A stretch of DNA of 60,010 nucleotides, from positions 1-60,010 of the forward strand of contig JAJPHB010000110.1 of NCBI GenBank assembly GCA_021325525.1, written 5' to 3'. Positions 4,589 through 24,158 of this stretch are shown here, one piece after another; position 1 is the first letter of the stretch; each line of letters starts with the position of its first letter. Below the pieces are notes generated by a model. That model searched no databases. It was given only the letters and a program-made list of their open reading frames with translations, and was not told the origin of the DNA. Position numbers and translations under genes: made by a program. The DNA is from Alphaproteobacteria bacterium. GTDB taxonomy: Bacteria; Pseudomonadota; Alphaproteobacteria; ATCC43930; CGMCC-115725.

Positions 4589-4610
4589 GATTGCATATCC
4601 TAAATGCTTC

Positions 4611-4639
4611 TTGCTTTATGAGATATTGCACCATAGACT
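4611..4639 (+). promoter_or_regulatory. tracrRNA promoter
   Basis: A -35-like TTGCTT (4611-4616) and a -10-like TAGACT (4634-4639) are separated by exactly 17 bases. Transcription would start near 4646, which is where the anti-repeat begins. The promoter points away from cas9. Confidence 0.6.
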
Positions 4640-4646
4640 TGGGTCC

Positions 4647-4764
4647 GTAGCAAACCTCGGGATGGCCGCTTATCGTAGGCAAAACGTAAGCGTCTACTCG
4701 TGCGGGCTGGGCAACCCTGATGACGCAATCACTGCCCCCTGACCCTCCCTTCGGGGAGGGTTTT
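4647..4764 (+). ncRNA. tracrRNA of the type II-C system
   Basis: Three signs agree. A 17-bp-spaced promoter ends just upstream. The RNA would begin GTAGCAAACCT, the exact reverse complement of AGGTTTGCTAC beside cas2 (the repeat remnant). It ends in a strong intrinsic terminator about 120 bases later. The anti-repeat probably runs to about 4680. CGCTTA (4668-4673) and TAAGCG (4687-4692) can pair, and GGG/CCC around 4707-4717 can form a small stem before the terminator. The RNA base-pairs with pre-crRNA repeats, is processed with RNase III in known systems, and scaffolds crRNA in Cas9. The exact 5' end and folding are inferred. Confidence 0.72.
4743..4764 (+). terminator. Intrinsic terminator of the tracrRNA
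   Basis: CCCTCCC (4743-4749) and GGGAGGG (4754-4760) form a 7-bp stem closed by a TTCG tetraloop and followed by TTTT (4761-4764). This is a textbook rho-independent terminator and forms the 3' end of the predicted tracrRNA. Confidence 0.85.
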
Positions 4765-5113
4765 GCATTTCCAGAGAGAAGCCTCCGGACGCTGATGGCG
4801 GGCGTACCGACAGATGACCCTTGCAACGGCAATTCACAGCTGTATCGTGTTCACTTAATGTTCTCGTTCTTTGAGATGGTGGATCGGCGATGACAGGCGG
4901 TGCGAGGACCGAGGCGGGAGCGTAACCTCCGGCGGGTGCGGTGCCCTGCGACACCGGCGCCGCCTGGCGCGGCGGCGGGGCAGGGGCCATATATGGACCT
5001 GTGCGCCGGCCTGCGAAACCTATGCGCTCTGTAATTTCTCTGGCAACAACACCATCTCTTGGGCAAATTCCGGCCGGCATGGATGCGCCCGGCGCATGAG
5101 AGGGCGGCGCATC
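4765..5113. other. Non-coding stretch between tracrRNA and the large oxidoreductase
   Basis: I found no convincing gene here. A minus-strand frame of 128 codons (4694-5080) contains a Pro/Ala-rich segment and runs through the tracrRNA terminator. Its codon choice is not typical of the neighbouring genes, so it is more likely decayed sequence than a real protein. The right edge leads into the palindrome at 5114-5129. Confidence 0.4.
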
Positions 5114-5129
5114 CGTTCGTATACGAACG
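5114..5129. promoter_or_regulatory. Perfect 16-bp palindrome, likely operator
   Basis: CGTTCGTATACGAACG is an uninterrupted palindrome 25 bases before the start codon of the 5155 oxidoreductase. Its core TTCGTATACGAA recurs as TTCGTACACGAA in front of the molybdenum-hydroxylase operon (12696-12707). Palindromes of this size and GTAYAC centre are typical of GntR/FCD-class regulators, but the regulator is not identified here. Confidence 0.6.
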
Positions 5130-5154
5130 ATCTCCGGCGTGGTACAAGGAACCG

Positions 5155-8100: not shown

Positions 8101-8631
8101 GTAGCCGAGATCGAGAAGGCGGCCGACGCCGTCGTCTGGTGCTGCGACGAGGCGCCGGGCTTTACGCCGGGGCGGGCCGAGGACAAGGCCTTCGTCGGCA
8201 ACATCGTCGAGGCGATCGAGGCCTATGGCGCGGGGCTTCTCGGCGAGACGCCGATCCCGCTCGCCGCCGTCGACCGCATCGTCGCCATCGGCTCCGACGG
8301 CATGATGGCGGCGGTGCAGCGCGCCCGCAGCGGCCGCCTCGCCCCCTATCTCAAGCCCGGCCACCGCGCCATCGCCTCCATCAACTCGCCGATGCAGTGC
8401 ATGATGAAGGAGATCTGCGCGCAGTGCCTGCAGCGGCATGTCGATCCGGCGACCGGGCAGGAGACGATCGTCTTCTCCTGCTTCAACCAGGATCAGCGGC
8501 TCGACGCCGTCGACTTCGCCAGCCTGCGCTCGCGCCTCGGCCAGAACGGCGTGCAGGAGAAGCTGACGCGGCTGTGGATCGACCGCTGCCTCAAGCAGAC
8601 GGGTCGCCGGCAGGCCGAAGCCGCGGCGTGA
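5155..8631 (+). CDS. Large three-part FAD/NAD(P)/iron-sulfur oxidoreductase
   Basis: This protein has 1158 aa if started at the ATG at 5155, which has AAGGA 4 bases upstream; a longer in-frame start at 5059 would run through the palindrome. Residues 1-240 are helical and unassigned. Residues 243-340 carry many Cys residues (CIWCHNQGKDSC, CNDCMKAC), like the Fe-S part of GltD-type proteins. Around 380-850 is a GltD/dihydropyrimidine-dehydrogenase-like FAD/NAD(P) module starting KVLVVGLGPAGFTLAHHL. From about 855 there is a ferredoxin-reductase fold (RPGQFYRLQNYE) ending in a PyrK-like cysteine cluster (CMMKEICAQCLQ...FSC, about 1081-1112). It probably moves electrons between NAD(P)H and a partner such as ferredoxin or a redox enzyme. 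The substrate is unknown. The shared operator motif links it to the operon at 12732. Confidence 0.85.
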   Translation: MTTLTLAHGLDFDDLYRRDGLVRIDALFLEHLRQSDVALHNRLLTARRAPEALERKAEAELLVDLAPHLEDFIGTLFGIGAELRALQRRHHELAPIYAVKRLFVQRRAVKGVTPEAAAALDGKGLRARLEALFGEPLDEAAFARHVAAWLEAEAEHAEALETAARYAAWATLSPDGRKAHRRGVLFKVPHKLDMEHLVPVESEVVHGVAMLRLPAEHRRHREGFALTDPGTDLTGALDQANYCIWCHNQGKDSCSKGLKDKKTGAFQKSQFGVTLAGCPLEEKISEMNLVKSRGNSVGALAIVVTDNPMAAATGHRICNDCMKACIYQKQDPVDIPQVETRTLKDVLGLPWGFEIYSLLTRWNPLDLRRPLPRPESGYKVLVVGLGPAGFTLAHHLMNDGHTVIGVDGLKLEPLPEDISGIGPLGVRRPFQPIRDVRQLYEALDDRIMAGFGGVAEYGITVRWDKNFLKLVRLLLERRRQFAMYGGVRFGGTMTVESAFAMGFDHIALCAGAGRPTVVPMKNGLAPGIRQASDFLMALQLTGAAKADSIANLQVRLPVVVIGGGLTAIDTATESLAYYPLQVEKFLARYEVLIAEQGEAAVRASWTAAETAAAEEFIAHAKAIRAERAAAAREGREPALARLLDAWGGVTIAYRRRLIDAPSYTLNHEEVAKALEEGIRFAEGLTPDEVVIDEAGQARALRLKRGDGSVVELPARTILVAAGTQPNTVLGREDPEHILLDGKHFQAVDEEGKPATPERVAKPAEVRVLMNIAPDGRAMSFFGDLHPSFAGNVVKAMASAKQGYPVVSRILARRAPAGPSPAALIARLDDELRPVVREVLRLTPNIVEVVVRAPMAARAFRPGQFYRLQNYETLATRACGSTLAMEGLALTGAWVDREKGLLSTIVLEMGGSSDLCALLRPGEPVILMGPTGTPTETPGGETVLLIGGGLGNAVLFSIAEALRAQGSRVLYFAGYKRIQDRYKVAEIEKAADAVVWCCDEAPGFTPGRAEDKAFVGNIVEAIEAYGAGLLGETPIPLAAVDRIVAIGSDGMMAAVQRARSGRLAPYLKPGHRAIASINSPMQCMMKEICAQCLQRHVDPATGQETIVFSCFNQDQRLDAVDFASLRSRLGQNGVQEKLTRLWIDRCLKQTGRRQAEAAA

Positions 8632-9343
8632 CGCCGGCGCGCGGCGCCGCCGCCGCTTCGGCGCGGCGCTCCGGCGTCAGCCAGTATTCGGCGGCGGCGA
8701 TGAGCCGCGTCGTCACGAAAGTGAGGGCGAGGTAAAGCGCCCCGGCGACGAGGAAGATCTCGTAGGGCGCGAAGGTTTGGGCGACGATGGTCCGCGCTGT
8801 CCCGGTGATGTCGAGGAGCGTGATGGTGCTGGCGAGCGAGCTCGACTTGATGACGAGGATGATCTCGTTGCCATAGGCCGGCAGCGCGAGGCGGAAGGCG
8901 CGCGGCAGGCCGATGAGGCGAAAGGCGAGGAAGCGCGACATGCCGAGCGCCAGCGCCGCCTCGATCTCGCCGCGCGGCACGGCGGCGATGGCGCCGCGCA
9001 GGATCTCCGCCGTATAGGCCGCGGTGTTGAGCGAGAAGGCGAGGACCGCGCAGGAGGAGGCATCGCGCAGCACCGTCCAGAGCGGCGTCGCCTTCACCCA
9101 CTCGAATTGGCCCAGCCCGTAATAGATGAGGAAGATCTGCACGAGGAGCGGCGTGCCGCGGAAGAAGGTGATGTAGCCAAAGGCAGGCGCCCAGAGGAGG
9201 GGATGGCGGGCATTCCGCAGCACGGCGAGCGGCAGCGCCAGCAGCATGCCGAGGGCGAGGCTGGCGAGCACCAGCTCCAGCGTCAGGACGAGGCCGCGGA
9301 GGAGATCCGGCACGCTCGCCCACATGAGCTCGTAATCGAGCAT
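8591..9343 (-). CDS. Polar amino-acid ABC transporter permease (HisM/ArtM type)
   Basis: This 250-aa inner-membrane permease has several hydrophobic segments and the EAA-loop signature EIEAALALGMSRFLAFRLIGLPRAFRLALPAYGNE, which contacts the ATPase. The start at 9343 (MLDYELMWASVPDLLRGLVLTL) overlaps the stop of the partner permease as ATGA, so the two are translationally coupled. The 3' end overlaps the convergent 5155 oxidoreductase by about 40 bases. Together with the next two genes it forms an importer of the lysine/arginine/ornithine/histidine family. No ATPase gene lies nearby. Confidence 0.9.
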   Translation of the reverse strand: MLDYELMWASVPDLLRGLVLTLELVLASLALGMLLALPLAVLRNARHPLLWAPAFGYITFFRGTPLLVQIFLIYYGLGQFEWVKATPLWTVLRDASSCAVLAFSLNTAAYTAEILRGAIAAVPRGEIEAALALGMSRFLAFRLIGLPRAFRLALPAYGNEIILVIKSSSLASTITLLDITGTARTIVAQTFAPYEIFLVAGALYLALTFVTTRLIAAAEYWLTPERRAEAAAAPRAGVTPRLRPAGDPSA

Positions 9344-11139: not shown

Positions 11140-12591
11140 TCAACCGCTGCACGCGACCGCGGCGGGCTCGCGGGTCGGATCGAGCGCTGGCGCCGTGCAG
11201 CCGACGATCTCCTTTCGCGTGTCGACATCCATGATCTCGTAGCGCCACTGCTCGGCGTGCTTGACCCGCCCCCACCAGACCCAGTCGTGGCCGGGCGAAT
11301 GGCGGGAGACGAAAGCGAACTCGGGCTCGGACGGGCCGTTCTGGGCATACCAGTACGGATTGCCCGTCCGCTGCAGCCACAGATAGATGCGATCGGTATA
11401 ATGTTTGATCGGGATCAAAACGCCGCAGCGCGTCACATGGATGCTGGGCGAGATCGACATTTCGCGCTCGCAGCCATTCTCGTAGGTCGTCCATTGCTCG
11501 CGGTAGTCCCGCGGAAACTGCTTGACGATGGCGCGCAGGAACGGATCGGCATCCGGCATCTTCGCGAAGTCGATCGGTACAGGTTTGCGCTGCTGGGGAG
11601 CGGCCATGCGCGTCGCGGGGAGATAGAGGATCGTACCCTGCCTCCCGGTGGGGAAATCGACCCTGACCTCGCGATTGTCCCAGTAGCGCGACGGCGTCGT
11701 CCGCGCGAATTCGAAATGCGCCTCGGCGAGGCGGACCTTCGCGTTCGGGGTCGCCTGGTTCTCGTCGAGGCCGAGCACGACGGCGACGGCGTAGAGCTTG
11801 TAGAGCGGGTCGAGCTTGGCCATTCCATCATGCGCGAGGCGGGCGAGCGTCATGAAGTCGCGCTCGCCGCCGATGCTCAGGCTCCGCCGCTGCGCTGCCG
11901 GATCGTCCTCGGCGATGTCGAGCGTGGTCGCCTGCTTGTCCGCGATCGCGACCACCTTGCCGGCGCTCGCATCGACTTGTCGCGTCACCGTTTTCAGCGT
12001 CGTCGGATGCTGGCCGAAAGCGAAGGTCCAGACGGGCGTCCCGCTCTCGCCTTCGCCGCTCCAGTAGAGGTGAAGCTCCGCCTGGGTCGCCTTCCCGCAG
12101 GACGAGATCATCGGATTGGCGCCGGCGCATGCCTTATCGAGGCCGGCGCTCCGCGCCTCGGCGAGGGCGCGGTCGAAACCGACGAGACCTGAGGGCAGCG
12201 CCAGCGTAAAGGGGCTGACCGAATCATCGACGGGACGGCCGCGCATCTCGTCCTGGCCAAATTGCTTCATCATCTTGCGCTGCTCGGCGGTCAGGTTGAG
12301 CAGCGCCGTGACCTCGAAATACTTTTCAGCGGAAGGCGAGTAGAAATAGAGCACCGCGTTGCCGGGCGGCCCGGCCTTGGTCACGTCCGGAACGCCGTTG
12401 GCGCCCATCGCGAAGCCGAAGCCGCTGACGACGACCTGCACGAGCCGGGCGTCGCTTTGCCAATGGCTGGCCAGCGCCCTGCCGCGCTCGCTCGCCTGAC
12501 CCACGACATCATCGCCGCGCGCTGAGGGCAACAGACGCACCGTCAGCACGCCGATGAGACACAGCGCGGCCACGAAAGCGACGCGTCGCAT
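11140..12591 (-). CDS. Exported protein of unknown function
   Basis: I do not recognise this 483-aa protein. The ATG at 12591 gives a good N-terminal signal sequence or anchor (MRRVAFVAALCLIGVLTVRLLPSARG) and has a GGGAG-like site upstream; a longer frame to 12684 would cross the palindrome at 12695's promoter side and lose the signal. The mature part is globular, with repeated Trp/Tyr-rich stretches near the C-terminus (IYLWLQRTGNPYWYAQNG, HDWVWWGRVKHAEQWRYEIMDV) and paired Cys residues (CAGANPMISSC; CEREMSIS...TRCG; a C-terminal pair). This looks like a disulfide-bonded periplasmic protein. It is divergent from the molybdenum-hydroxylase operon, with about 140 bases between the starts. Confidence 0.8.
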   Translation of the reverse strand: MRRVAFVAALCLIGVLTVRLLPSARGDDVVGQASERGRALASHWQSDARLVQVVVSGFGFAMGANGVPDVTKAGPPGNAVLYFYSPSAEKYFEVTALLNLTAEQRKMMKQFGQDEMRGRPVDDSVSPFTLALPSGLVGFDRALAEARSAGLDKACAGANPMISSCGKATQAELHLYWSGEGESGTPVWTFAFGQHPTTLKTVTRQVDASAGKVVAIADKQATTLDIAEDDPAAQRRSLSIGGERDFMTLARLAHDGMAKLDPLYKLYAVAVVLGLDENQATPNAKVRLAEAHFEFARTTPSRYWDNREVRVDFPTGRQGTILYLPATRMAAPQQRKPVPIDFAKMPDADPFLRAIVKQFPRDYREQWTTYENGCEREMSISPSIHVTRCGVLIPIKHYTDRIYLWLQRTGNPYWYAQNGPSEPEFAFVSRHSPGHDWVWWGRVKHAEQWRYEIMDVDTRKEIVGCTAPALDPTREPAAVACSG

Positions 12592-12694
12592 GGCAGGCTC
12601 CCGCTCGCCGCGAATGGTCGAACGGGCGCCCTTGCCTGTCAAGGCGACGGCGAGAGGAGAGCTGTTGAACGACAGCGGCGCCATGATAGAATTA

Positions 12695-12708
12695 ATTCGT
12701 ACACGAAT
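12695..12708. promoter_or_regulatory. 14-bp inverted repeat, second copy of the operator motif
   Basis: ATTCGT-AC-ACGAAT lies 24 bases before the first gene of the molybdenum-hydroxylase operon. Its core TTCGTACACGAA differs from the 5114 palindrome by one central base, and the distance to the start codon is also nearly the same (24 and 25 bases). A common regulator is the simplest explanation. Confidence 0.6.
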
Positions 12709-12731
12709 GAATCGCCCGACGGCGAAGGCGG

Positions 12732-13580
12732 ATGATGTATCTGCGGCCGAGCATGGTGGAGGAGGCGCTGGCGGCGCTCGCCGAGGGCGGGCCGACCACC
12801 ATTCTCGCCGGCGGCACGGATTACTACCCGGCGCGGGTCGGCCGGCCGTTGACGGAAGACATCCTCGACATCACCGCAATTGCCGCGCTGCGCGGCATCG
12901 GCGAGCGCGACGGCGCGCTCCGCATCGGCGCGGCGGTGCGGTGGACCGAGATCGCGGAGGCGGCATTGCCGCCTTCCTTGCGCTGCCTGCAGCTCGCGGC
13001 GCGCGAGATCGGCGGCCGGCAAATCCAGAATGCCGGCACGCTCGCCGGCAATCTCTGCAACGCCTCGCCCGCCGCGGACGGGGTCCCCTGCCTGCTCGCG
13101 CTCGATGCCGAAGTCGAGCTCGCCTCGGCGCGCGGGACGCGCCGGCTTCCGGTCGCGGAATTCGTCCGCGGCAATCGCCGGACGGCACGTCGTCCGGACG
13201 AGCTGATGACCGCGATCATCGTGCCGCGGTGCGCCGAAGCGGCGCGGTCCACATTCCTGAAGCTCGGCGCCCGCCGCTATCTCGTCATCTCGATCGTCAT
13301 GGTGGCGGCGCTCATTGAGGCCGCACCCGACGGCGCGATCGCTGCGGCGCGTATCGCCGTCGGCGCCTGTTCGGCGGCGGCGCAGCGCCTTCCGCTGCTG
13401 GAAGCGGTGCTGCGCGGGCGCCGCCTCGCCTCCGGTATCGGCTGCCTTGTCGCGGCGGAGCATCTTGGCGAGCTGGCGCCGATCGACGATGTGCGCGGCA
13501 CGGCCGCGTACCGGCGCGAAGCGGCCCGGCGGCTCGTCGCGCGGGCGCTCGATGAACTCGCCGCGGAGGCCGCGGCATGA
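12732..13580 (+). CDS. FAD-binding subunit of a xanthine-dehydrogenase-family molybdenum hydroxylase
   Basis: This 282-aa protein belongs to the CoxM/XdhA-FAD family. It has the FAD motifs ILAGGTDYYPA (about 24-34) and QIQNAGTLAGNLCNASPAADG (about 98-118, the T-x-GGN-like loop). The C-terminal part is a CO-dehydrogenase-flavoprotein C-like domain. It accepts electrons from the [2Fe-2S] clusters of the partner subunit and passes them to NAD+ or another carrier. ATG occurs twice in tandem at 12732 and 12735, preceded by AAGGCGG. It opens an operon of six overlapping genes and shares an ATGA with the next one. Confidence 0.93.
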   Translation: MMYLRPSMVEEALAALAEGGPTTILAGGTDYYPARVGRPLTEDILDITAIAALRGIGERDGALRIGAAVRWTEIAEAALPPSLRCLQLAAREIGGRQIQNAGTLAGNLCNASPAADGVPCLLALDAEVELASARGTRRLPVAEFVRGNRRTARRPDELMTAIIVPRCAEAARSTFLKLGARRYLVISIVMVAALIEAAPDGAIAAARIAVGACSAAAQRLPLLEAVLRGRRLASGIGCLVAAEHLGELAPIDDVRGTAAYRREAARRLVARALDELAAEAAA

Positions 13581-16327
13581 GCGCGACCGAGCCGCGCATC
13601 GCGTTCACGCTCAACGGCGCCGACACCACCGTGACCGCGGCGCCGATCCGCCGCCTTGCCGCCGTGCTGCGCGAGGAATGCGGACTCACCGGCACCAAGA
13701 TCGGCTGCGATGCCGGCGATTGCGGCGCCTGCACGGTGCTGGTCGATGGCGCGCAGCTCTGCGCCTGCCTCGTCCCGGTGGGGCAAGTCGCGGGACGGCG
13801 CATCACCACCATCGAGGGGCTCGCCGCCGATCCCCGCTATGACGCGCTGCGACAATCCTTCCACCGGCATGGGGCCGCCCAATGCGGCATCTGCACGCCG
13901 GGCATGCTGATGGCTGCCGCCGACCTCTTGGCGCGCGCGCCACGACCCGACGCTGCGATGACCGCGGATGCGCTCGGGGGCGTCCTCTGCCGCTGCACGG
14001 GATATCGCAAGATCATCGACGCCGTCCTCGATGTCGCCGGCGCCGAGGCGCCGCCGCTGCCGGCGGCGGGCGAGGCTGTCGGCGCGCGGATGCCCAAGGT
14101 GGATGGCCTTGCGAAGCTGGACGGCACCGAGCGCTACGGTGCCGACGAGGGGCCGGCCGAAGCGTTGTGGCTCAAGGCGATCCGGTCGCCCCATGCGGCG
14201 GCGCGCTTCACCTTGGGGGATCTCAGAGCGCTGCGCGCCAAATATCCGGGCCTCGTCCGCATCCTCACCGCCGCCGATATTCCGGGCAAGAACAGCTTCG
14301 GCATCTATCCCGACATCAAGGATCAGCCGGTGCTGGCCGAAGGCGTCGTCCGTTTCCGCGGCGAGGCGGTGCTGGCGCTCGTCGGCGATGCCGAGACGAT
14401 CGCGGCGATCGGCGAGGAGGAGGTGCCGATCGCCTGGCACATCGAGGCGCCGGTGATCGGCGTCGCGGCGGCGCTGCGGTCGGGCGCGCCGGCGCTGCAC
14501 GCCGCCCATCCCGACAATGTCCTCATCAAAGGCCGCGTCCTCTCCGGCGATGTCGAAGCGGCGCTGGCCTCCGCCGCTGCCGTCGTCACCGGCGAGTTTT
14601 CGACGGCCTTCGTCGAGCACGCCTATATCGAGCCGGAGGCGGGTTATGCCCGGCGCGTCGGCGACCGCATCGAGATCTTCGCCTGCACGCAGACGCCTTA
14701 TATGGACCGCGACGAGGTGGCGCGCATCATGGGGCTCTCCCCCGAGCAGGTGCGCATCATTCCCTCGGCCGTGGGCGGCGGCTTCGGCGGCAAGCTCGAC
14801 CTCTCGCTGCAGCCGCTCATCGCGACGGCGGCGTGGCTCACCGGCCGTCCGGTGCGCTGCATCTACACCCGGCCCGAATCGATGATGTCGACGACGAAGC
14901 GCCACCCCGCGCACATCAAGGCGCGGATCGCCGCCGATGCCGAGGGGCGGCTCCTCGCTGTCGATTTCCACGCCGATTTCAATACCGGCGCCTACGCCTC
15001 CTGGGGCCCGACCGTGGCGAACCGGGTGCCCGTGCATGCGAGCGGGCCCTACCGCGTTGCGGCGGTGCGGGCCGAGACGCGCGCCGTCTACACCAACGAG
15101 ACGCCGGCCGGCGCGTTCCGCGGCTTCGGCGTGCCGCAGACGGTGATCGCGACCGAGACGCTGCTCGACGAGCTCGCCGAGAAGCTCGACCTCGATCCCC
15201 TGGAGCTGCGGCATCGGAACGCGCTTCGCGTCGGCGACCGCACCGCGACGGGTCAGGTCCTGCAGGCGAGCGCCGGCCTTGCCGCCTGCCTCGATGCCCT
15301 GCGCCCGCGCTGGCGCGAGGCGCGGGCCGCCGCGGCGGCGGCGAATGCCGGTGCGACAGGCCCGCTCCGCCGCGGCGTCGGCCTCGCGGCGATGTGGTAC
15401 GGGATCGGCAATACTTCGATGTCGAACCCATCGACGATGCGGGTCGGCATCGACCGCGTTGGGCGCATCACGCTGTATAGCGGCGCCGTCGATATCGGGC
15501 AGGGGTCGAACACCATTCTCTCGCAGATCTGCGCCGACGCGCTCGGCGTTCCCGTGGCCGCCATCCGCCTCGTCACCGGCGACACCGACAGGACGCCGGA
15601 TGCCGGCAAGACCTCGGCCTCGCGCCAGACCTTCATCTCCGGCGCCGCCGCGAAGGTGGCGGGCGAAGCGCTGCGGCGACAGGTGCTGGAGCGCGCCGGG
15701 GCCGGGCCCGCGGCGCGGCTCCTCGTCGAGAGCGGCCGCATCTTCGTCGAAGAGTCCGGCGAACGCCATGCGCTCGACTTCTCGGACCTCCCCGTGTCGA
15801 ACGAGAGCGGCGACGTCCTGAGCGCGACCGGGCGCTTCGACCCGCCGACAACCGCGCTCGACGCCGACGGGCAGGGCGTGCCCTACGCTACCTACGCCTT
15901 CGCGGCGCAGATGGCCGAGATCGAGGTCGATACCGGCCTCGGCACCGTCAGGCTTCGCCGCATCGTCGCCGCGCATGATGTCGGCCGCGCCGTCAATCCG
16001 CGCGAGGTCGAGGGGCAAATCCATGGCGGCATCGCGCAGGGCATCGGCCTCGCCCTCATGGAGGAGTATCTGCCGGGCCGCACCGAGAATCTCCACGACT
16101 ATCTCGTTCCGACCTTCGGCGACGTGCCGCCCATCGAATGCCTCCTCATAGAGGATCCGGAACCGCTCGGCCCCTACGGCGCCAAGGGCATCGGCGAGCC
16201 GGCGCTGATCCCGACGGCGCCCGCCATTCTCAACGCCATCTATCACGCGACGGGCGTGCGGCTGCGCCGAGTACCGGCGACCCCCGACCGCATGCGCGCC
16301 GCCCTCAGAGAGGCGGGATATGACTGA
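13577..16327 (+). CDS. Fused [2Fe-2S] and molybdopterin subunit of a xanthine-dehydrogenase-family hydroxylase
   Basis: This 916-aa protein joins two subunits that are usually separate (CoxS and CoxL). Residues 1-155 bind two clusters: C44, C49, C52 and C62/C64, then C103, C106, C138 and C140 (CGICTPGM and CRCTGY). From about 170 the molybdenum domain starts (MPKVDGLAKLDGTERYGAD). It carries GGGFGGKLD, PAGAFRGFGVPQ and, near the end, KGIGEPALIPTAP, whose Glu is the general base in this family. It should hydroxylate an N-heterocycle or aldehyde next to nitrogen, using water. The substrate cannot be read from sequence, but the downstream reductase suggests nicotinate or a similar azaarene. Confidence 0.93.
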   Translation: MSATEPRIAFTLNGADTTVTAAPIRRLAAVLREECGLTGTKIGCDAGDCGACTVLVDGAQLCACLVPVGQVAGRRITTIEGLAADPRYDALRQSFHRHGAAQCGICTPGMLMAAADLLARAPRPDAAMTADALGGVLCRCTGYRKIIDAVLDVAGAEAPPLPAAGEAVGARMPKVDGLAKLDGTERYGADEGPAEALWLKAIRSPHAAARFTLGDLRALRAKYPGLVRILTAADIPGKNSFGIYPDIKDQPVLAEGVVRFRGEAVLALVGDAETIAAIGEEEVPIAWHIEAPVIGVAAALRSGAPALHAAHPDNVLIKGRVLSGDVEAALASAAAVVTGEFSTAFVEHAYIEPEAGYARRVGDRIEIFACTQTPYMDRDEVARIMGLSPEQVRIIPSAVGGGFGGKLDLSLQPLIATAAWLTGRPVRCIYTRPESMMSTTKRHPAHIKARIAADAEGRLLAVDFHADFNTGAYASWGPTVANRVPVHASGPYRVAAVRAETRAVYTNETPAGAFRGFGVPQTVIATETLLDELAEKLDLDPLELRHRNALRVGDRTATGQVLQASAGLAACLDALRPRWREARAAAAAANAGATGPLRRGVGLAAMWYGIGNTSMSNPSTMRVGIDRVGRITLYSGAVDIGQGSNTILSQICADALGVPVAAIRLVTGDTDRTPDAGKTSASRQTFISGAAAKVAGEALRRQVLERAGAGPAARLLVESGRIFVEESGERHALDFSDLPVSNESGDVLSATGRFDPPTTALDADGQGVPYATYAFAAQMAEIEVDTGLGTVRLRRIVAAHDVGRAVNPREVEGQIHGGIAQGIGLALMEEYLPGRTENLHDYLVPTFGDVPPIECLLIEDPEPLGPYGAKGIGEPALIPTAPAILNAIYHATGVRLRRVPATPDRMRAALREAGYD

Positions 16328-17792
16328 GCCGGCCCGTCCTTCAGGCGAGGGCATCATCACCTGCGATGCCTGCCCGGTGCTTTGCCGCATCCGCCCGGGC
16401 AAGACCGGCGCCTGCGACCGTTATGCGAATGAGGGCGGCGTCCTGACGCGCACCGATCCGATGGTGCTCGCCGAAGCCTCGCCCGCCCTCGTTCCCTTCC
16501 TCGGCGAGGATTGGGATGGCAATCCGGTGCCGGACGCGCCGGTTTTCCTCACCGGCATCGGCTCGGGCACGACCTATCCCGACTATAAGCCCGCCCCCTT
16601 CATCGTCTCGAGCACGCACAAGGGCGTCGATGTCGTGACGGTCGTCACCGAGGCGATCTTCAGCTATTGCGGCGCCAAGGTGAAGATTGACACCGATCGC
16701 TTCATCGGACCCGAGACGGCGACGGTGCGTGCCAAGGGCGAGCCCGTCGGCCATGTGACGACGGCGGAATATGGCTCGCAGATGCTGGCGCTGGGCGGCG
16801 TCCGCCACATCACCGGCGGCGGCAAGAGGGAGGGGGTGGTTGCGACCGAGACGCTGCTCGCGCTCTGCAACAAGGAGCCGGCGCATCTGACGATCGATGG
16901 CGGCGCCGATCTCGTCATCGCGGCCGGCGCGTCGCCCGTCATCGACGGCGTTCGCGAGGAGCGCATGCGGGTCGGCTGCGGCTCGGCGACGATCGGCATG
17001 TTCGCTCGGCAGTGGCACGGTCATGTCGACGAGGTGATCGTCGTCGACGACCACATCACGGGCGTCCTCTCCGAGCACCAGGCCGGCCGTTTCCTCGAGA
17101 TGGCTCCCGCCGGCATTCGTGTCCGTGGCCACAAATCGACGCCCGGCCGCTATTTCCGCGTGGCGCAGCCCGGCACCGGCTGGGGCGGAACCGACATCAC
17201 CGATCCCCTCGCCATCATCGAGCGGATCGATCCGAAGGTTGCGCGGCCGGGGCTGCGTCTCCTCATGGTCTCGACGACGGGGGCGGATGCCGCCTTCTTC
17301 ATCCTGGACGAGGCGCTTCGCCCCACTTCGGCCGACATGCCGGAGGCGGTCCGGCGGGTCGTGGACCGGATCGGTGAGAATTGCGAGCCTTCCGTCGCCT
17401 CGGTGCTGTTCATGGCGGGGGCTGGCGGGTCGCTGCGGGCCGGCGTCACGGAAAATCCGGTCCGGCTGACGCGCTCGGTCAAGGACGCGCTCGTCCGCGT
17501 CACTTGCGGCGGCGCTCCCGCCTATGTCTGGCCGGGCGGCGGCATCACTTTCATGGTCGATGTCACGGCGATGCCGAACCGCTCCTTCGGCTCCGTCCCC
17601 ACTCCCGCCATTGTCGGCCCCATCGAATTCACCATGCGCCGCGAGGATTACGCGGCGATGGGCGGGCATATGGACCGCGTTCGGGCGCTCGCCGAAGTGC
17701 AGGGTTCGGATCGCCTGCGCCGTGAGGCCTGGCGCGAGGCCAATCCCTGGCCCGCCGCCGTCATCGAGGGGAAGCATGACCGCGGCGGCTGA
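16320..17792 (+). CDS. 6-hydroxynicotinate reductase-like Fe-S protein
   Basis: This 490-aa protein opens with a four-cysteine motif, CDACPVLCRIRPGKTGAC (C15, C18, C22, C32), and continues with TGIGSGTTYPDYKPAPFIVSS. I recognise it as the family named after 6-hydroxynicotinate reductase of Eubacterium barkeri, which reduces 6-hydroxynicotinate to 1,4,5,6-tetrahydro-6-oxonicotinate using ferredoxin. Proteobacterial members are common but, to my knowledge, little tested. It overlaps the hydroxylase by 8 bases and the UPF0280 gene by 17. Its position after a hydroxylase and before a hydantoinase-type hydrolase fits reduction of a hydroxylated ring. The family call is firm and the substrate is inferred. 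Confidence 0.82.
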   Translation: MTEPARPSGEGIITCDACPVLCRIRPGKTGACDRYANEGGVLTRTDPMVLAEASPALVPFLGEDWDGNPVPDAPVFLTGIGSGTTYPDYKPAPFIVSSTHKGVDVVTVVTEAIFSYCGAKVKIDTDRFIGPETATVRAKGEPVGHVTTAEYGSQMLALGGVRHITGGGKREGVVATETLLALCNKEPAHLTIDGGADLVIAAGASPVIDGVREERMRVGCGSATIGMFARQWHGHVDEVIVVDDHITGVLSEHQAGRFLEMAPAGIRVRGHKSTPGRYFRVAQPGTGWGGTDITDPLAIIERIDPKVARPGLRLLMVSTTGADAAFFILDEALRPTSADMPEAVRRVVDRIGENCEPSVASVLFMAGAGGSLRAGVTENPVRLTRSVKDALVRVTCGGAPAYVWPGGGITFMVDVTAMPNRSFGSVPTPAIVGPIEFTMRREDYAAMGGHMDRVRALAEVQGSDRLRREAWREANPWPAAVIEGKHDRGG

Positions 17793-18678
17793 GCGAGGGC
17801 GGAGCGGCCCGACGGGCCGCCTCCTCGGCGATGGCAGGCTGCATCTGCAGCACGGTCCGATCGACCTCGTCATCGAGGCGTTCGGTGAGGAGGCCGAGCG
17901 TCGCCTCGCCTATCGCCAGGCCTGGGCGCGTTTCCAGGATATTCTCGAGACTCTGGTTGCCGAGTTGCCGCTTCTCCGGCGACCCGTCGACGAGACGCAT
18001 CCCGGCTTTGCAGGGCCGGTCGCGCGGCGCATGCTGGCGGCCTGCCGGCCCTTTGCCTCGACCTTCATCACGCCGATGGCGGCGGTTGCCGGCGCCGTCG
18101 CCGAGGAGGTGCTGGAGGCGCTCACCGCGGGACGCCGCCTCGCCAAGGCCTATGTCAATAATGGCGGCGATATCGCGCTCTACCTCTCGTCCGGCGAGCG
18201 CCTTGCCGCCGGCCTCGTTGCGGACGCCGATCATCCGGCCCTCGATGGCATCGCGACCGTCACCGCGCCGATGCCGGTGCGCGGCATCGCGACCAGCGGC
18301 TGGCGCGGCCGCAGCTTCTCGCTCGGCATCGCCGACGCCGCGACCGTGCTGGCGGCCGGCGCCGCCGCTGCCGATGCCGCCGCGACGCTGGTCGCCAATG
18401 CCGTCGATCTCGACCACCCCGCGGTTCGCCGAAGCCGCGCCTGCGATTTGGACGAGACGAGCGATCTCGGCCGGCGCCTGGTCACGGTTGGGGTGGGGCC
18501 CCTGGAGGCGGATGCGGTGGCCGAAGCGCTGGCGCGGGGCGCCGCCTGCGCTGAGGCGATGCGCCGCGCCGGGCACATCTACGGCGCCGTGCTGGCGCTG
18601 CAAGGCGAGATCCGGGTCGTCGGGCCGGCGGCTCTCGCCCAGCCCGAGGAGCGCCGGCTGGCCCGGCTCTGCGCATGA
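17776..18678 (+). CDS. UPF0280 family protein (ApbE-like fold)
   Basis: This 300-aa protein starts at the ATG at 17776, preceded by GAGGGGAAG; longer frames upstream are shadow of the reductase. Family blocks include FITPMAAVAGAVAEEVLEAL, AYVNNGGDIALYLSSGE and GIATSGWRGRSFSLGIADAATVLA. These resemble ApbE flavin transferases, but the biochemical role of UPF0280 is unproved. It often sits beside 6-hydroxynicotinate-reductase-like genes, as here. A role in attaching or handling a flavin of that reductase is a reasonable guess only. The stop overlaps the next start as ATGA. Confidence 0.88.
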   Translation: MTAAAERGRSGPTGRLLGDGRLHLQHGPIDLVIEAFGEEAERRLAYRQAWARFQDILETLVAELPLLRRPVDETHPGFAGPVARRMLAACRPFASTFITPMAAVAGAVAEEVLEALTAGRRLAKAYVNNGGDIALYLSSGERLAAGLVADADHPALDGIATVTAPMPVRGIATSGWRGRSFSLGIADAATVLAAGAAAADAAATLVANAVDLDHPAVRRSRACDLDETSDLGRRLVTVGVGPLEADAVAEALARGAACAEAMRRAGHIYGAVLALQGEIRVVGPAALAQPEERRLARLCA

Positions 18679-20735
18679 CGATCGTCGGCTGCGATGTCGG
18701 CGGCACCTTCACCGACCTCATTCTCTATGACGAAGCGAGCGACGAGCTCCGCGTCGCCAAGGTGCCGACGACCGGCGACAACCAGGCCGAGGGCGTGCTG
18801 GAGGCGCTGGAGCGGGTCGAGGCCAGGCTCTCGGAGATCGCGATCGTCCACGGCACGACGACCACCACCAATGCCCTTCTCGAACGCAAAATCGCGCGCT
18901 GCGGCCTTATCACGACGCGCGGCTTCCGCGACGTGCTGGAGCTCGGGCGGCGGACGCGGCCGCGCCCTTACGGTCTCATCGGCAGCTTCGAGCCGCTGAT
19001 CCCGCGCGAGATGCGGGTCGAGGTCGATGAGCGGATCGATGCCGAAGGCGAAGTCTTGCGCCCGCTGGACCCGGCGGAGGTTGAGAAAGCAGTCGAGGAT
19101 TTGCGTGCCAAGGGCATGGAATCGCTCGTCATCCATTTCCTTCATTCCTACATCAACTCGGCCCATGAGGAGGCGGCGGCCGCGGCCGCCCGTCGGGTCT
19201 GGCCGGAAGGGTGCGTAACGATCGGCAGCGCCCTCGTCTCGGAGTTCCGCGAATACGAGCGCGGCGTCACGGCGGCGGTGAACGCCGCGATCCGCCCCGT
19301 CCTCGCCCGCTATATCGGCCGCCTCGAAGAGGAGCTGCGGCGCCGGGGCTATCGCCGCGATCTCCTCATCATGCAAGGGAATGGCGGCACCGTCTCGGCG
19401 CGCATCGTCGCCGAGGCGGCGGTCAACACCGTGATGTCGGGACCGGCCTCCGGGGTCATCGCCGCGGCGCTGACGGCCGAAGAGGCGGGTTTTCCCGACG
19501 CGGTCAGCTACGACATGGGCGGAACGAGCAGCGATGTCGCGCTCATCCGCAGCGGCGTGCCGCTCGTCACCTCCGAGACCGAGCTCGAATATGCGATGCC
19601 GATCCATGTGCCGATGGTCGATGTGCACACGATCGGCGCCGGCGGCGGCTCCATCGCGCGGATCGACGAGGCGGGGCTGCTTCGCGTCGGCCCGGAGAGC
19701 GCCGGCGCTGTGCCGGGTCCCATCTGCTTCGGGCGCGGCGGGACGCAGCCCACGGTGACCGACGCCAACCTCGTTCTCGGCCGACTCAATCACGATGGGC
19801 TCCTCGCCGTCAGACAGAAGGTGCCGATCGAGGCGATCCGGGCACGCCTCGCCGAGTCGGTCGGCGGGCCGCTCGGGCTCGACGGCGAAGCGGCGGCCGC
19901 CGCCATCCTGCGCGTCGCCAATGACCGGATGGCGGGCGCGATCCGCATGGTCTCGCTGGCGCGCGGGCACGATCCGCGCGATTTCGTGCTCGTCGCCTTC
20001 GGCGGCGCCGGCCCGCTCCACGCCGCGGCATTGGCGCGCGAGCTCGGCATTCCCCGCGTCCTGGTGCCGGCGCGGCCCGGCCTGACCAATGCCTTGGGCT
20101 GCGTTCTCGCCGACCTTCGGCATGATTTCGTCCGCTCCGTCAATAAACCCGTGCAAGCCATTGAAGACGGCTTTGTTGCTTCGATTCTCGAATCCCAGAT
20201 CGAAGAAGGCCGAGCGTTGCTGGAGCGCGAAGCCGCCGAGATCGATGATTTGGTCGCCCTGCACCGTGCCGAGATGCAGTTCGAAGGGCAGAGCCATCTC
20301 CTCAGCGTCGAATTGCCGGATCGCGCGATCGGGCGCGAGGCGCTCCAGCGCGCCTTCGAGGCGGCCTATTGGCGACGCTTCGAGGTCGCGCTGCCCGAAA
20401 TCCGGGCCGTCCTCGTCAATCTCCACACCGCGGTCATTGGCAAGCGCCGCCGCATCCCGTTGACGGCCCTCGCTACGGCTGGTCCGGACTCCGGCGAGAC
20501 GCCCGTTTCCCGTCGTCGTGTCTGGTTCGCGGAGGGCTGGGCTGACACGCCGATTTATCGCCGCGGCGGGCTGCGGCCTGGGGCGACTGTCGCCGGACCG
20601 GCGGTCATCGAGCAGATGGACGCGACGACGGTCATTGAGCCGGGCGATGAAGCGCGGGTCGATAAGGCTGGCAACCTCGTGATCACGATCGGCGAGGGTG
20701 GTGGTCCGAGACTTCCGAAAGCGGCGCCGTCATGA
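18675..20735 (+). CDS. hyuA: Hydantoinase/oxoprolinase subunit A (HyuA family)
   Basis: This 686-aa protein shows the HyuA pattern. It has an actin/HSP70-like ATP site (TIVGCDVGGTFTDLILYDEA, residues 1-20), HGTTTTTNALLERK, the block VMSGPASGVIAAALTAEEAGF with SYDMGGTSSDVALIRSG, and VAFGGAGPLHAAALARELG. Family members hydrolyse cyclic amides such as N-methylhydantoin or 5-oxoproline with ATP, together with subunit B. Here the pair follows a ring-hydroxylating and ring-reducing set, so a cyclic lactam produced by those enzymes is the likely substrate. It is coupled by ATGA to both neighbours. Confidence 0.93.
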   Translation: MTIVGCDVGGTFTDLILYDEASDELRVAKVPTTGDNQAEGVLEALERVEARLSEIAIVHGTTTTTNALLERKIARCGLITTRGFRDVLELGRRTRPRPYGLIGSFEPLIPREMRVEVDERIDAEGEVLRPLDPAEVEKAVEDLRAKGMESLVIHFLHSYINSAHEEAAAAAARRVWPEGCVTIGSALVSEFREYERGVTAAVNAAIRPVLARYIGRLEEELRRRGYRRDLLIMQGNGGTVSARIVAEAAVNTVMSGPASGVIAAALTAEEAGFPDAVSYDMGGTSSDVALIRSGVPLVTSETELEYAMPIHVPMVDVHTIGAGGGSIARIDEAGLLRVGPESAGAVPGPICFGRGGTQPTVTDANLVLGRLNHDGLLAVRQKVPIEAIRARLAESVGGPLGLDGEAAAAAILRVANDRMAGAIRMVSLARGHDPRDFVLVAFGGAGPLHAAALARELGIPRVLVPARPGLTNALGCVLADLRHDFVRSVNKPVQAIEDGFVASILESQIEEGRALLEREAAEIDDLVALHRAEMQFEGQSHLLSVELPDRAIGREALQRAFEAAYWRRFEVALPEIRAVLVNLHTAVIGKRRRIPLTALATAGPDSGETPVSRRRVWFAEGWADTPIYRRGGLRPGATVAGPAVIEQMDATTVIEPGDEARVDKAGNLVITIGEGGGPRLPKAAPS

Positions 20736-22483
20736 CCATCGATCCCATTACCCTCGTCGTCATCCAGAACGGGTTGCAGCAGGTCTGTAACGAGATGGAC
20801 CTCGCCTTCGTGCGCGCTGCCTTCAGCCCCGTCATCTCCGAGGCGCTCGACCGCTCCGACGGCATCTATCACCGCACGACCGGCGCGCTCATCGCGCAGG
20901 GCGATCTCGGTCTCCCGGTCTTCGTCGGCACCATGCAGTTCTCGACGGCGGCAGTCATCGCGCGGGCGAAATCGCCGCGGCCGGGCGACATCTGGATCGT
21001 CAACGATCCCTATCTCGGCGGCACGCATCTGATGGACGTGAAGTTCGTCAAGCCCTTCTTTCATCGCGGCCGGCTCTTCGCCTGGCTCGCCAATACCGGG
21101 CACTGGCCGGATCTGGGCGGCGCGGTGCCGGGCGGCTTCTCGGCGAACGCCACCGAAGTCGAGCAGGAGGGGCTACGCCTGCCGCCCGTCCGGCTCTACA
21201 AGGAAGGCGTTCTCGACGAGGAGATCCTCTCTATCATTTTCTCGAACATCCGCATCGCCGACCAACGCATCGGCGACATCAAGGCGCAGGCGGCGGCGCT
21301 TGCCATCGGCGAGAAGCGCCTCACGGCGCTCATCGAGCGCTACGGCGAGGATGTCGTCGAAGAGGCGATCTCGGAGCTCGAGGCGCGGGCGGCGCAACAG
21401 ATGCGCGCCAAGATCGCGACCGTCCCGGACGGCGTCTATGAAGGCGAGAGCTTCGTCGATTCCGACGGCGTCGAGGACCGGCCGCTTCGCATCGCGCTCA
21501 CGCTCCGCAAGGCGGGGACGGAGCTCTATTTCGACCTCTCGCGTTCGAGCCCGCCCTGCCGCGGGCCGATGAACAGCGTCATCGCCACGACCAAATCCTC
21601 GGTCTACCTCGCGGTGAAGCACGTCTTTCCCGAGGTGCCGATCAACGCCGGCACCTTCCAGCCGCTGCACATAGCCGACCCCGTCGGCACCTTCCTCGAC
21701 GCCCGCTATCCGCGTCCCGTCTCGGGCTGCGCCGCCGAAGTCTCGCAGCGCATCGCCGAGGCGGTGTTCGCGGCGCTCGGCCAGGCGATCCCGGACCGCC
21801 TCTTCGCGGCGCCGGCCGGCACCAGCGGCAATTTCGCGCTGGGCGGCAGCGATCCCAAGACCGGTCGCAACTACGTCATGTATCTCATCAGCGGCGGCGG
21901 CTATGGCGGCAGCGCTCGCCTCGACGGCATCTCGAATGGCTGCTCGACGATCGGCATCTCGAAGACGACGCCGCTCGAAGTTATCGAGCAGCGCTACCCG
22001 GTTCTCTTCGAGGAATATGCGCTGGCCGAAGGCTCCGGCGGCGCGGGTCGGCAGCGCGGCGGCTTCGGCGTGCGCTACGCCGTGCGGCTGCGGCGCGGCG
22101 AGGCGCGCGCCTCCTTCGTCATGGACCATGGCCGCTTCGGGCCGCAAGGCGCGCAGGGCGGCGCCGATGGCCGCGTCAACCGCGTCACCGTCCGGCGGAA
22201 CGGCGAGGACTACGTGCCGCCGCACCTCTCGAAGGATCAGGGCATCGCCATCGGTCCCGGCGACAGTGTCATCGTCGAAACGCCGGGCGGCGGCGGCTTC
22301 GGCCCGCCTTTCGAGCGCGATCCCGCGCTCGTCGCCCGGGACGTGCGGCGCGGCTACTACACGCGCGCCGAGGCCGAGGAGCGCTTCGGCGTCGTGCTGG
22401 ATGCCGGAATGGAGGTCGATGTCGCGGCGACCGCGGAGCGTCGCGTCCGATTCACCACAGAGGCACAGAGGCAGAGAGAATAG
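20732..22483 (+). CDS. hyuB: Hydantoinase/oxoprolinase subunit B (HyuB family)
   Basis: This 583-aa protein begins MTIDPITLVVIQNGLQQVCNEMDLAFVRAAFSPVISEALDRSDGIY, followed by RPGDIWIVNDPYLGGTHLMDV and TGHWPDLGG, all diagnostic of HyuB. It forms the ATP-dependent lactam hydrolase with the preceding subunit A, overlapping it by ATGA. It is the last gene of the operon. The final residues (FTTEAQRQRE) come from an ACCACAGAGGCACAGAGG-type sequence often seen between genes, so the C-terminus may have been extended by read-in of intergenic sequence. Confidence 0.93.
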   Translation: MTIDPITLVVIQNGLQQVCNEMDLAFVRAAFSPVISEALDRSDGIYHRTTGALIAQGDLGLPVFVGTMQFSTAAVIARAKSPRPGDIWIVNDPYLGGTHLMDVKFVKPFFHRGRLFAWLANTGHWPDLGGAVPGGFSANATEVEQEGLRLPPVRLYKEGVLDEEILSIIFSNIRIADQRIGDIKAQAAALAIGEKRLTALIERYGEDVVEEAISELEARAAQQMRAKIATVPDGVYEGESFVDSDGVEDRPLRIALTLRKAGTELYFDLSRSSPPCRGPMNSVIATTKSSVYLAVKHVFPEVPINAGTFQPLHIADPVGTFLDARYPRPVSGCAAEVSQRIAEAVFAALGQAIPDRLFAAPAGTSGNFALGGSDPKTGRNYVMYLISGGGYGGSARLDGISNGCSTIGISKTTPLEVIEQRYPVLFEEYALAEGSGGAGRQRGGFGVRYAVRLRRGEARASFVMDHGRFGPQGAQGGADGRVNRVTVRRNGEDYVPPHLSKDQGIAIGPGDSVIVETPGGGGFGPPFERDPALVARDVRRGYYTRAEAEERFGVVLDAGMEVDVAATAERRVRFTTEAQRQRE

Positions 22484-22507
22484 ACGAAGGAGCGAACAAC
22501 CCTCGCG

Positions 22508-23368
22508 TCAGTCCGGGAAGCCGTCGAGGATCGCGCATCTCTCGATGATGCTCTTCCGCTTCTGCCGCCTTGCCAGAGCGGCGGCGCAGCGCCGGAGCGC
22601 CTTCACGTCGAGGGCGGGATCGGCCGCGCAGAGCTGCACCACGTTGTCCTTGAAGCCGCGCAAGGCCAGAAAATAGCTGCGCGCCGCCAAGGATGCGGCG
22701 CGGCGCGCATGCGGCAGGTAGAGCGCCTTGTCGCGCGCGTCTGCCCAATTGACCGCGATGCAGCCGCCGGGCTCGAGCCGCGCCGCGCATTCTTCCCAGA
22801 ATTCGAGCGGCGGCAAATTGAACCCGTGCCCGCCATAGATGTCGACGAGGATGGCATCGAAGCGCCCCTCGGCATGGCGCACGACATCGGCGGCCTCGGC
22901 CAGCTCGACCGGATGGTCGATGCGGAAGTGCCGGCGTGCGAGGCGAAGCACCGTCGGGTCGTACTCGACCACGGTCGCCGCGCAATCGGGGAAATAGGCG
23001 CGGAGGAAGCGCAGCATCGCGCCGCCGCCGAGCCCGAGGAGAAGCGCCGAGCGCGGCTGGGGGACAACCGCCACGGCGAGCGCCATAGCCTGCTCATAGG
23101 CGAAGACGAGCCGCTCGGGGCGCAGCAGGCTCATGGCCGATTGCTGCGTCAGAAGCCCATTCTGCGGCAGCGAGACGAGGCAGCGCCGGATGTCGCCGCC
23201 CCGCGGCACATCGACCACGGCAAGGCGTGCGCCGAAGGCCGTCGCATAGGCCTCCTCGACGATGCGGGCGCCGGGGCCGAAGGCGAAGCGGATGGGCTCG
23301 CGGCTGGTGGTCGGTGCGCTCGCTGCCGGCGATGCCGCGCGCCGGAGCCTGACTGTGGCAGCCGTCAA
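22508..23368 (-). CDS. Spermidine-synthase-like protein (methyltransferase fold)
   Basis: The recognised part contains SALLLGLGGGAMLRFLRAYFPDCAATVVEYDPTVLRLARRHF, then RFDAILVDIYGGHGFNLPPLEFWEECAARLEPGGCIAVNWA. This is the SpeE-like Rossmann fold with a glycine-rich loop and an acidic residue ending beta 2. Members either transfer aminopropyl groups or are uncharacterised relatives; I would not name a substrate. The start is uncertain because no ATG occurs upstream of the fold. A TTG at 23366-23368, just after the bpt stop, gives 286 aa; the open frame continues further into bpt. It appears to be co-transcribed with bpt. Confidence 0.78.
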   Translation of the reverse strand: MTAATVRLRRAASPAASAPTTSREPIRFAFGPGARIVEEAYATAFGARLAVVDVPRGGDIRRCLVSLPQNGLLTQQSAMSLLRPERLVFAYEQAMALAVAVVPQPRSALLLGLGGGAMLRFLRAYFPDCAATVVEYDPTVLRLARRHFRIDHPVELAEAADVVRHAEGRFDAILVDIYGGHGFNLPPLEFWEECAARLEPGGCIAVNWADARDKALYLPHARRAASLAARSYFLALRGFKDNVVQLCAADPALDVKALRRCAAALARRQKRKSIIERCAILDGFPD

Positions 23369-23369
23369 G

Positions 23370-24158
23370 TCAGGGGGAAAATGGCTGCCAGCCTTGCGCG
23401 CCCAGGCTCTCAAGCGGGCGGAAGCGGGTCTTGTAGGACATCTTGTCGCTCTCGGCGATCCAGTAGCCGAGATAGATATAGGGCAGGCCTCGCCGCCGGG
23501 CGTCCTCGACGAGCCACAACACCATGAAGGTGCCGAGGCTGCGCCGGGCAAGGAGCGGATCGAAGAAGCTGTACACCGCCGAATAGCCGTCATCGAGCGC
23601 ATCGATGATGCAGGCGCCGACCAGAATCCGCCGGGGATCGCGGAACTCGACGATCCGCGTGTCGATCGGGCTGTCCTCGATCATGGCGCGGTAGTCGCCG
23701 AAGGTCATGGCCGCCATCTCGCTGCCGGCGTGGCGGGTCCGCTCGTAGCGGACGAAGAGGCGGTATTGCTCGGCGGTGGCGCGCAGCTCCGTCTCGCGTC
23801 CTTCGATATCGGCATTGATCCGGGCGACGCGGCGGGTCGATCGTGTCGGGCAGAAGGCGAGGGCGGCGACGCGCACCGGCACGCAGCCGGCGCAGCCGGC
23901 GCAGCTCGGCCGATAGGCAAGATGATGGCTGCGGCGGAAGCCGGCTCGGCACAAATCGTCGTAGAACGACTTGGCATCGCGGCCGGCGAGCTCGGTGATG
24001 AGCTTGCGCTCGAGCTTTCCGTCGAGATAGGGGCAGGGCAGGGCCGAGGTGCGGTAGAAGTGCTGGAGCGGCGTGACGAGGGGCCGGCTGTATTCCGCGC
24101 TGCGGGTTTCGATCGCAACCCGACGCTCTTCGATCGCTCCGCCCTGACCTTCGGGCAT
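23370..24158 (-). CDS. bpt: Aspartate/glutamate leucyltransferase (Bpt)
   Basis: This 262-aa protein is the bacterial arginyl-tRNA-protein-transferase relative that adds Leu to N-terminal Asp or Glu, marking proteins for ClpS/ClpAP. It has the N-terminal Cys pattern YRPSCAGCAGCVPVRV and the family blocks ARINADIEGRETELRATAEQYRLFVRYERTRHAGSEM and FSFFDPLLA-like YSFFDPLLARRSLGTFMVLWLVEDARRRGLPYIYLGYWI. The C-terminal block MSYKTRFRPLESLGAQGW is also typical. The ATG at 24158 has GAGG upstream, and longer frames are out of family. Cytoplasmic. Confidence 0.93.
   Translation of the reverse strand: MPEGQGGAIEERRVAIETRSAEYSRPLVTPLQHFYRTSALPCPYLDGKLERKLITELAGRDAKSFYDDLCRAGFRRSHHLAYRPSCAGCAGCVPVRVAALAFCPTRSTRRVARINADIEGRETELRATAEQYRLFVRYERTRHAGSEMAAMTFGDYRAMIEDSPIDTRIVEFRDPRRILVGACIIDALDDGYSAVYSFFDPLLARRSLGTFMVLWLVEDARRRGLPYIYLGYWIAESDKMSYKTRFRPLESLGAQGWQPFSP

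Follow-up and report, generated by a model that had tools for sequence, protein, structure and literature searches.

A six-gene operon in an alphaproteobacterial genome as a candidate variant of the reductive nicotinate pathway with an ATP-dependent ring opener

Contig JAJPHB010000110.1 of an Alphaproteobacteria bacterium (assembly GCA_021325525.1) was analysed over positions 1 to 60,010, hereafter referred to as the window. Its plus strand carries, at 12732-22483, six genes whose open reading frames (ORFs) overlap their neighbours by 4-17 nt. They encode a molybdenum hydroxylase, a relative of 6-hydroxynicotinate reductase (Hnr), a protein of family UPF0280, and the predicted subunits HyuA and HyuB of a lactamase dependent on adenosine triphosphate (ATP). 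The operon is considered here as a candidate variant of the reductive nicotinate pathway in which HyuAB would stand in for enamidase, the known ring-opening enzyme. The six genes are as follows.

12732-13580, plus strand: flavin adenine dinucleotide (FAD) subunit of a molybdenum hydroxylase of the xanthine dehydrogenase family (FAD_binding_5/CO_deh_flav_C; PF00941, E 5.7e-43; PF03450, E 1.3e-13)
13577-16327, plus strand: fused subunit of the same hydroxylase with two [2Fe-2S] domains and a molybdopterin part (Fer2/Fer2_2/MoCoBD; PF00111, PF01799, PF01315, PF02738, PF20256)
16320-17792, plus strand: 6-hydroxynicotinate-reductase-like Fe-S protein, Hnr (relatives on plasmids, 61-66% identity)
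17776-18678, plus strand: UPF0280 protein with an ApbE fold (NCBIfam PRK04334.1-2, 395.6 bits, cut-off 290)
18675-20735, plus strand: HyuA, predicted ATP-binding subunit of an ATP-dependent lactamase (Hydantoinase_A; PF01968, PF05378, PF19278)
20732-22483, plus strand: HyuB, predicted metal-binding, ring-hydrolysing subunit (Hydantoinase_B; PF02538, E 1.3e-161)

The UPF0280 gene starts with the ATG at 17776, which gives the 17-nt overlap with the Hnr gene; the other overlaps are of 4, 8, 4 and 4 nt. The Pfam scan assigned no family to the Hnr and UPF0280 proteins of the window. Around 151 distinct Hnr genes (five duplicate rows were removed before counting), the fetched stretches contained a molybdenum hydroxylase subunit with more than 50% identity to that of the window in 127 cases, UPF0280 in 145 and DUF1185 in 102, as well as a branched-chain-type ABC transporter (79), MarR (64) and ferredoxin-NADP reductase (10). 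In 140 of these loci no more than 500 bp separate UPF0280 from Hnr, and the consecutive order Hnr, UPF0280, HyuA recurs in nine loci besides the window when the genes of the query panel alone are considered; thus, the gene order is more than a product of chance. A chance arrangement or a misread frame is ruled out by the overlapping ORFs together with the conserved order, and the many long antisense ORFs of the region are attributed to its high G+C content (69-71% over 12001-24000). The set of six overlapping genes given in a preliminary description of this DNA was therefore borne out by the ORFs, by Pfam and NCBIfam matches, and by relatives.

When the whole molybdenum subunit (916 aa) was compared with solved structures, the top match was aldehyde oxidoreductase 1dgj, a 907-aa chain; this ranking arises because the nicotinate dehydrogenase structure is divided into separate chains. 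For residues 167-578 (412 residues) the top solved chain was nicotinate dehydrogenase 3hrd_A, with 259.6 bits against 174.7 for the runner-up; 3hrd is the enzyme of Eubacterium barkeri. The subunit is expected to hydroxylate C6 of nicotinate, its putative substrate. All 26 plasmid records found contain a match to Hnr with 61-66% identity; 17 of these matches are annotated as 6-hydroxynicotinate reductase, the remainder being unannotated or "hypothetical". These values agree with the earlier 6-hydroxynicotinate-reductase-like assignment and identify the window protein as a probable 6-hydroxynicotinate reductase, as judged against annotated relatives rather than the E. barkeri protein itself. 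Seven cysteines (C15, C18, C22, C32, C117, C220 and C355) are invariant in an alignment of 40 Hnr sequences, and the genome from which the window comes (4.79 Mb, 172 contigs) has a single copy of the gene. The predicted Hnr structure is of middling confidence (predicted local distance difference test, pLDDT, 73.9); the PDB search gave no match at E <= 0.001, and a second structure comparison none at Z >= 5. A weak resemblance to the C-terminal barrel of the glycine cleavage T-protein (8 of 8 members, best E 0.0029; 1woo, Z 4.0 over 66 residues) was not used.

The first half of the operon is recognisable as the known reductive nicotinate cluster, and it is widespread. Proteobacterial clusters for the first three nicotinate steps have already been published (PMC3511419) and the reductive route is described in PMC9304392; hence the preliminary claim that the whole operon is undescribed does not hold. 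As in E. barkeri, Azorhizobium and Bradyrhizobiaceae strain SG-6C, genes for a molybdenum hydroxylase and an Hnr-type reductase are clustered; unlike that route, the window's genome has no enamidase match at E <= 1e-60 and, with one query, no DUF1185 match, and HyuAB is part of the operon. At least 593 Hnr relatives exist among named genomes, the best 80 of which were analysed. Of 385 genomes of the class to which the window belongs, 71 gave an Hnr match at E <= 0.001; in three of these the matches are weak fragments with E about 1e-4 and were left uncounted, which leaves 68 genomes with strong Hnr. The distribution is patchy within the window's own family (6 of 39 genomes).

Enamidase was searched for with the enamidases of plasmid loci L004 and L003, which match 2VUN at E 7e-105 and 2e-111, respectively; enamidase-like matches of 36-41% identity were not scored as enamidase. 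The L004 locus was kept outside the HyuAB locus count, its HyuA, encoded 9 kb from Hnr, having served as query. Ring-opener labels were taken from the fetched stretch itself for named and plasmid loci, and from the whole genome for genome loci. Of the 151 distinct Hnr loci, 30 contain enamidase, 55 HyuAB, none both and 66 neither; in the 92 wide loci (at least 8.5 kb on each side) the corresponding numbers are 24, 38, 0 and 30. Among the 68 Hnr-positive genomes, 29 encode enamidase only, 37 HyuA only, none both and two neither. The enamidases so counted are 64-77% identical to the query (next matches, at most 41%) and the HyuA proteins at least 57% (next, at most 55%). The two genomes with neither enzyme are 70% and 86% complete, and a laxer second search of both found no enamidase and HyuA only at 42% identity or less. 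Eight further Hnr-positive genomes, outside the set in which the pattern had been found, comprised six with HyuA only, one with enamidase only and one with both, which brings the combined 76 genomes to 43, 30, one and two (neither), respectively. Enamidase and HyuAB thus exclude each other almost completely in Hnr-positive genomes. Since the genomes are related, these counts are not independent draws; a Fisher value makes the association look stronger than it is, and the tree is the better test.

The Hnr tree comprised 113 labelled rows, with two short, five duplicate and 36 unlabelled rows left out. The ring-opener label changes 16 times on it with FastTree and 15 times with IQ-TREE, and at least nine changes are forced by starred branches; on the tree of the molybdenum subunit (94 rows) there are ten changes, at least seven of them forced. 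When set against shuffles (means 35 and 28) the label is still clustered, which is what neighbours should show. Even the window's own family includes two enamidase-type genomes (G277 and G355) along with three of the HyuAB type besides the window. The label changes on both trees indicate that one ring opener has repeatedly taken the place of the other alongside the same hydroxylase and reductase, as would be expected if enamidase and HyuAB perform the same step. On the HyuA tree, built from a set without CapA and OplA, all 64 Hnr-linked HyuA proteins fall into a single clade (support 100), which also encloses the HyuA of four Hnr-free genomes, all from one family; 21 other HyuA lie outside. 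The HyuA of L004 falls outside this clade.

An alternative explanation of the exclusion is that HyuAB-type operons degrade another pyridine or a pyrimidine, such as a substituted nicotinate, isonicotinate or picolinate, so that the pattern reflects differing substrates and no replacement. The unequal number of DUF1185 copies in the two types of loci and the presence of HyuAB relatives beside another molybdenum hydroxylase in an Hnr-free operon speak for it. However, neither the Hnr tree nor the molybdenum subunit tree divides into two clean ring-opener classes, both NicAB-type hydroxylases (four loci with enamidase, two with HyuAB) and fused ones (35 and 59 loci) occur with both ring openers, and the stretch of the window's molybdenum subunit noted above is nearest to nicotinate dehydrogenase. 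We consider this alternative unlikely.

The sequences of HyuA and HyuB are compatible with lactam opening. Among solved structures HyuA matches N-methylhydantoinase best, followed by 6yra, and acetophenone and acetone carboxylases also match; the closest solved structure of HyuB is 6yra_B (E 1.6e-83). From its subunit lengths of 696 and 581 residues, 6yra was identified as the caprolactamase CapAB. In CapB, mutants of the metal tetrad Asp41, His99, Asp102 and His124 lose most or all activity (PMC8453981), and OplAB, of the same family, opens the six-membered lactam delta-valerolactam with ATP and bicarbonate (PMC11033972). The window HyuA contains the CapA-type phosphate motifs, including D7 and D280, and the GxxPGP motif; the ATP sites are identical wherever covered (67-75 of 75 loci, the others not covering the site; the 75 include two paralogs and four loci from Hnr-free genomes). 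The HyuB residues D40, H99, D102 and H124 are identical in all 67 loci whose match covers them; the 68 loci counted include seven paralogs and four loci from Hnr-free genomes. HyuAB resembles CapAB of Pseudomonas jessenii and OplAB of P. putida as a predicted two-subunit, ATP-dependent lactamase with ATP and metal motifs retained. It differs from them in scoring below half of the NCBIfam caprolactamase equivalog cut-offs (489.8 bits with the CapA model and 332.4 bits with the other, cut-off 1000) and in that the HyuA compared on the tree include a separate clade of Hnr-linked proteins.

Since the family includes carboxylases, as the acetophenone and acetone carboxylase matches illustrate, HyuAB might instead act as a carboxylase, or on a later amide, hydantoin or oxoproline-like compound, with some other enzyme opening the Hnr product. 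This appears improbable, more so than a difference in substrate: the mutual exclusion of enamidase and HyuAB is best explained by one shared step, and the best matches of HyuA (N-methylhydantoinase, then 6yra) and of HyuB (6yra) rank ahead of the carboxylases.

We consider it probable (about 0.73) that the operon serves the catabolism of a pyridine carboxylate, most likely nicotinate or 6-hydroxynicotinate, with HyuAB replacing enamidase and UPF0280 acting as a partner of Hnr. As family membership suggests, the molybdenum hydroxylase would convert nicotinate to 6-hydroxynicotinate, and Hnr would reduce the latter to 1,4,5,6-tetrahydro-6-oxonicotinate (THON). Because THON is a six-membered lactam, its ATP-driven opening is chemically plausible in view of the activity of OplAB on delta-valerolactam. 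HyuA may activate the THON lactam with ATP and the metal site of HyuB may hydrolyse it to 2-(aminomethylene)glutarate, which could shed ammonia, unaided or with a helper, to yield 2-formylglutarate, the product that would be shared with the enamidase reaction. UPF0280 would be no pathway enzyme; it is a candidate for a dedicated helper in the maturation or loading of Hnr. We infer the substrate, reaction and product of the HyuAB step and the role of UPF0280, while the existence of a variant reductive nicotinate pathway appears well supported by comparative genomics. The preliminary proposal that HyuAB opens the lactam instead of enamidase gains support from the near-complete exclusion, the repeated swaps on the Hnr tree, and the conserved ATP and metal sites. 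Its further statement that no characterised pathway has exactly this set stands in part: the core pathway is known, and the variant with HyuAB was not found in the literature searched. There, in open-licence sources judged mostly by titles and the beginnings of abstracts, HyuAB was not seen joined to the reductive nicotinate pathway. If the proposed replacement is correct, one catabolic step has been repeatedly taken over by a non-homologous enzyme, at an ATP cost that the known enzyme does not have, and genes now named hydantoinase, oxoprolinase or acetophenone carboxylase acquire a likely job.

Several observations weigh against this interpretation. HyuAB is often distant from Hnr, and in the 30 wide loci mentioned above neither enzyme is on the stretch. 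The identity line that separates the counted HyuA from the next matches (57% against 55%) was set after the data had been seen, although the tree backs it. One genome of the 76, G489, has both ring openers; its enamidase (61% identity) adjoins two DUF1185 genes, and the 20 kb fetched around it contained no Hnr, UPF0280 or matching molybdenum hydroxylase gene. Enamidase also occurs in one Hnr-negative genome (G082), and HyuA of at least 62% identity in five, four of them from one family; the match in the fifth (G127) is partial and that genome is 74% complete. In three of the four HyuAB loci from that family (L197-L200) a distant molybdenum hydroxylase large subunit lies beside HyuAB, and in L200, the only one of the four scanned with Pfam, HyuAB is accompanied by BKACE, a Rieske oxygenase and a MarR regulator. 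HyuAB of the Hnr-linked clade is thus not tied to Hnr alone, and these four loci perhaps represent another pathway with the same ring opener. Finally, two DUF1185 genes are present in 18 of 24 wide enamidase-type loci versus 4 of 38 wide HyuAB-type loci, the other 34 having none or one, so that more than a single step may distinguish the two types. L003, L004, L008 and many other Hnr loci carry one or two copies of DUF1185. Its fold is chorismate-mutase-like (PMC2954203). A function of DUF1185 as an enamine or imine deaminase was left as an idea; the window's genome showed no DUF1185 with the one query used. The chorismate-mutase-like fold is akin to that of RidA.

Of the partners of Hnr the strictest is UPF0280, which presumably corresponds to COG2122 and for which the preliminary description offered no role. 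The 68 genomes (of 385) with a strong Hnr match are precisely those with a strong UPF0280 match, and UPF0280 is present in none of the other 317 (three genomes with matches at E about 1e-4 only were left uncounted). Of the six Hnr loci without UPF0280 on the fetched stretch, four belong to genomes in which UPF0280 lies at another place or beyond a contig end; the remaining two are L034 (about 10 kb on each side) and L070 (a 7.5-kb stretch). The structure model of the window protein (pLDDT 93.3) matched DVU1097 (2o34) first, then FmnB and ApbE; with Foldseek, 7esc (E 4e-5) and 6nxj_A (E 4e-4) were retrieved with probability 1.00 and template modelling (TM) scores of about 0.4. Weak ApbE Pfam matches were found in five of eight UPF0280 members (best E 0.002), and residues S174, D200 and T204 are invariant in all 41 aligned sequences. 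For the Hnr of E. barkeri a covalently attached flavin has been reported (Alhapel 2006), and this points to flavin loading as a possible role of UPF0280.

UPF0280 could accordingly be a flavin transferase that attaches the Hnr flavin, rather than a persulfide, Fe-S or other maturation factor. The fold, the weak ApbE matches, the three invariant residues and the covalent flavin reported for E. barkeri all favour this reading, which is compatible with the proposed pathway; we regard it as possible but somewhat improbable. In contrast to ApbE and FmnB, whose fold it shares, UPF0280 has no invariant or nearly invariant histidine in the 41-sequence alignment (a sequence alignment only, without residue-level superposition on ApbE), while His257 of ApbE is described as the general base (PMC12052999). 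The ApbE target motif, which starts with Asp and ends with S/T-G-A-S/T, was found in none of 149 Hnr sequences with either a strict or a loose pattern. Canonical ApbE-type flavinylation of Hnr at the conserved GCGSAT was rejected, as this target motif is absent; at its last position 35 of the 149 sequences have A and one has S. The lack of both an invariant histidine and a target motif argues against the plain ApbE mechanism, and we therefore propose UPF0280 as a candidate dedicated maturation partner of Hnr.

In Desulfovibrio, COG2122 is required together with DUF39 for homocysteine synthesis (PMC5764234). The COG2122-DUF39 pathway of Desulfovibrio and methanogens has in common with the Hnr loci a protein of what is presumably one family, working with one dedicated partner enzyme (PMC5764234), and differs in the identity of that partner, which in the Hnr loci is Hnr. 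A search for DUF39 (PF01837) found it neither in the window's genome nor in 200 genomes of the phylum, control genomes being positive. The proposal can be extended: in a hitherto undescribed form of the reductive nicotinate pathway, no less frequent than the known one in the sampled genomes, HyuAB would open THON in place of enamidase, and UPF0280/COG2122 proteins would be obligate maturation factors for Hnr in both versions, as maybe for DUF39. We put this forward tentatively, as falling somewhat short of even odds. If it is true, the family is a general cofactor-installing partner of Fe-S enzymes, and, with an orphan family tied to a second enzyme partner, its function becomes testable in ordinary environmental bacteria.

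Other loci were found in the window around the operon. Divergent from it, a 514-aa ORF (11140-12684, minus strand) lies, in its longest reading, 47 bp from the operon and has no Pfam or NCBIfam matches at E <= 0.001. A type II clustered regularly interspaced short palindromic repeats (CRISPR)-Cas locus occupies 493-4588 on the minus strand and encodes Cas9 (1052 aa; TIGR01865, 600.6 bits) and Cas1 (TIGR03639, 256.8 bits); no direct repeats of at least 20 nt were found within 1-1600, 4400-5200 or 8300-8700. A frame of 1190 aa (5059-8628, plus strand) is similar to PRK06567 (glutamate synthase beta/2-polyprenylphenol hydroxylase) with 773.8 bits, below the cut-off of 1072. Farther downstream, a 1209-aa protein (48424-52053, minus strand) contains POR, TPP_enzyme_C and DUF6537 domains and resembles indolepyruvate ferredoxin oxidoreductases.

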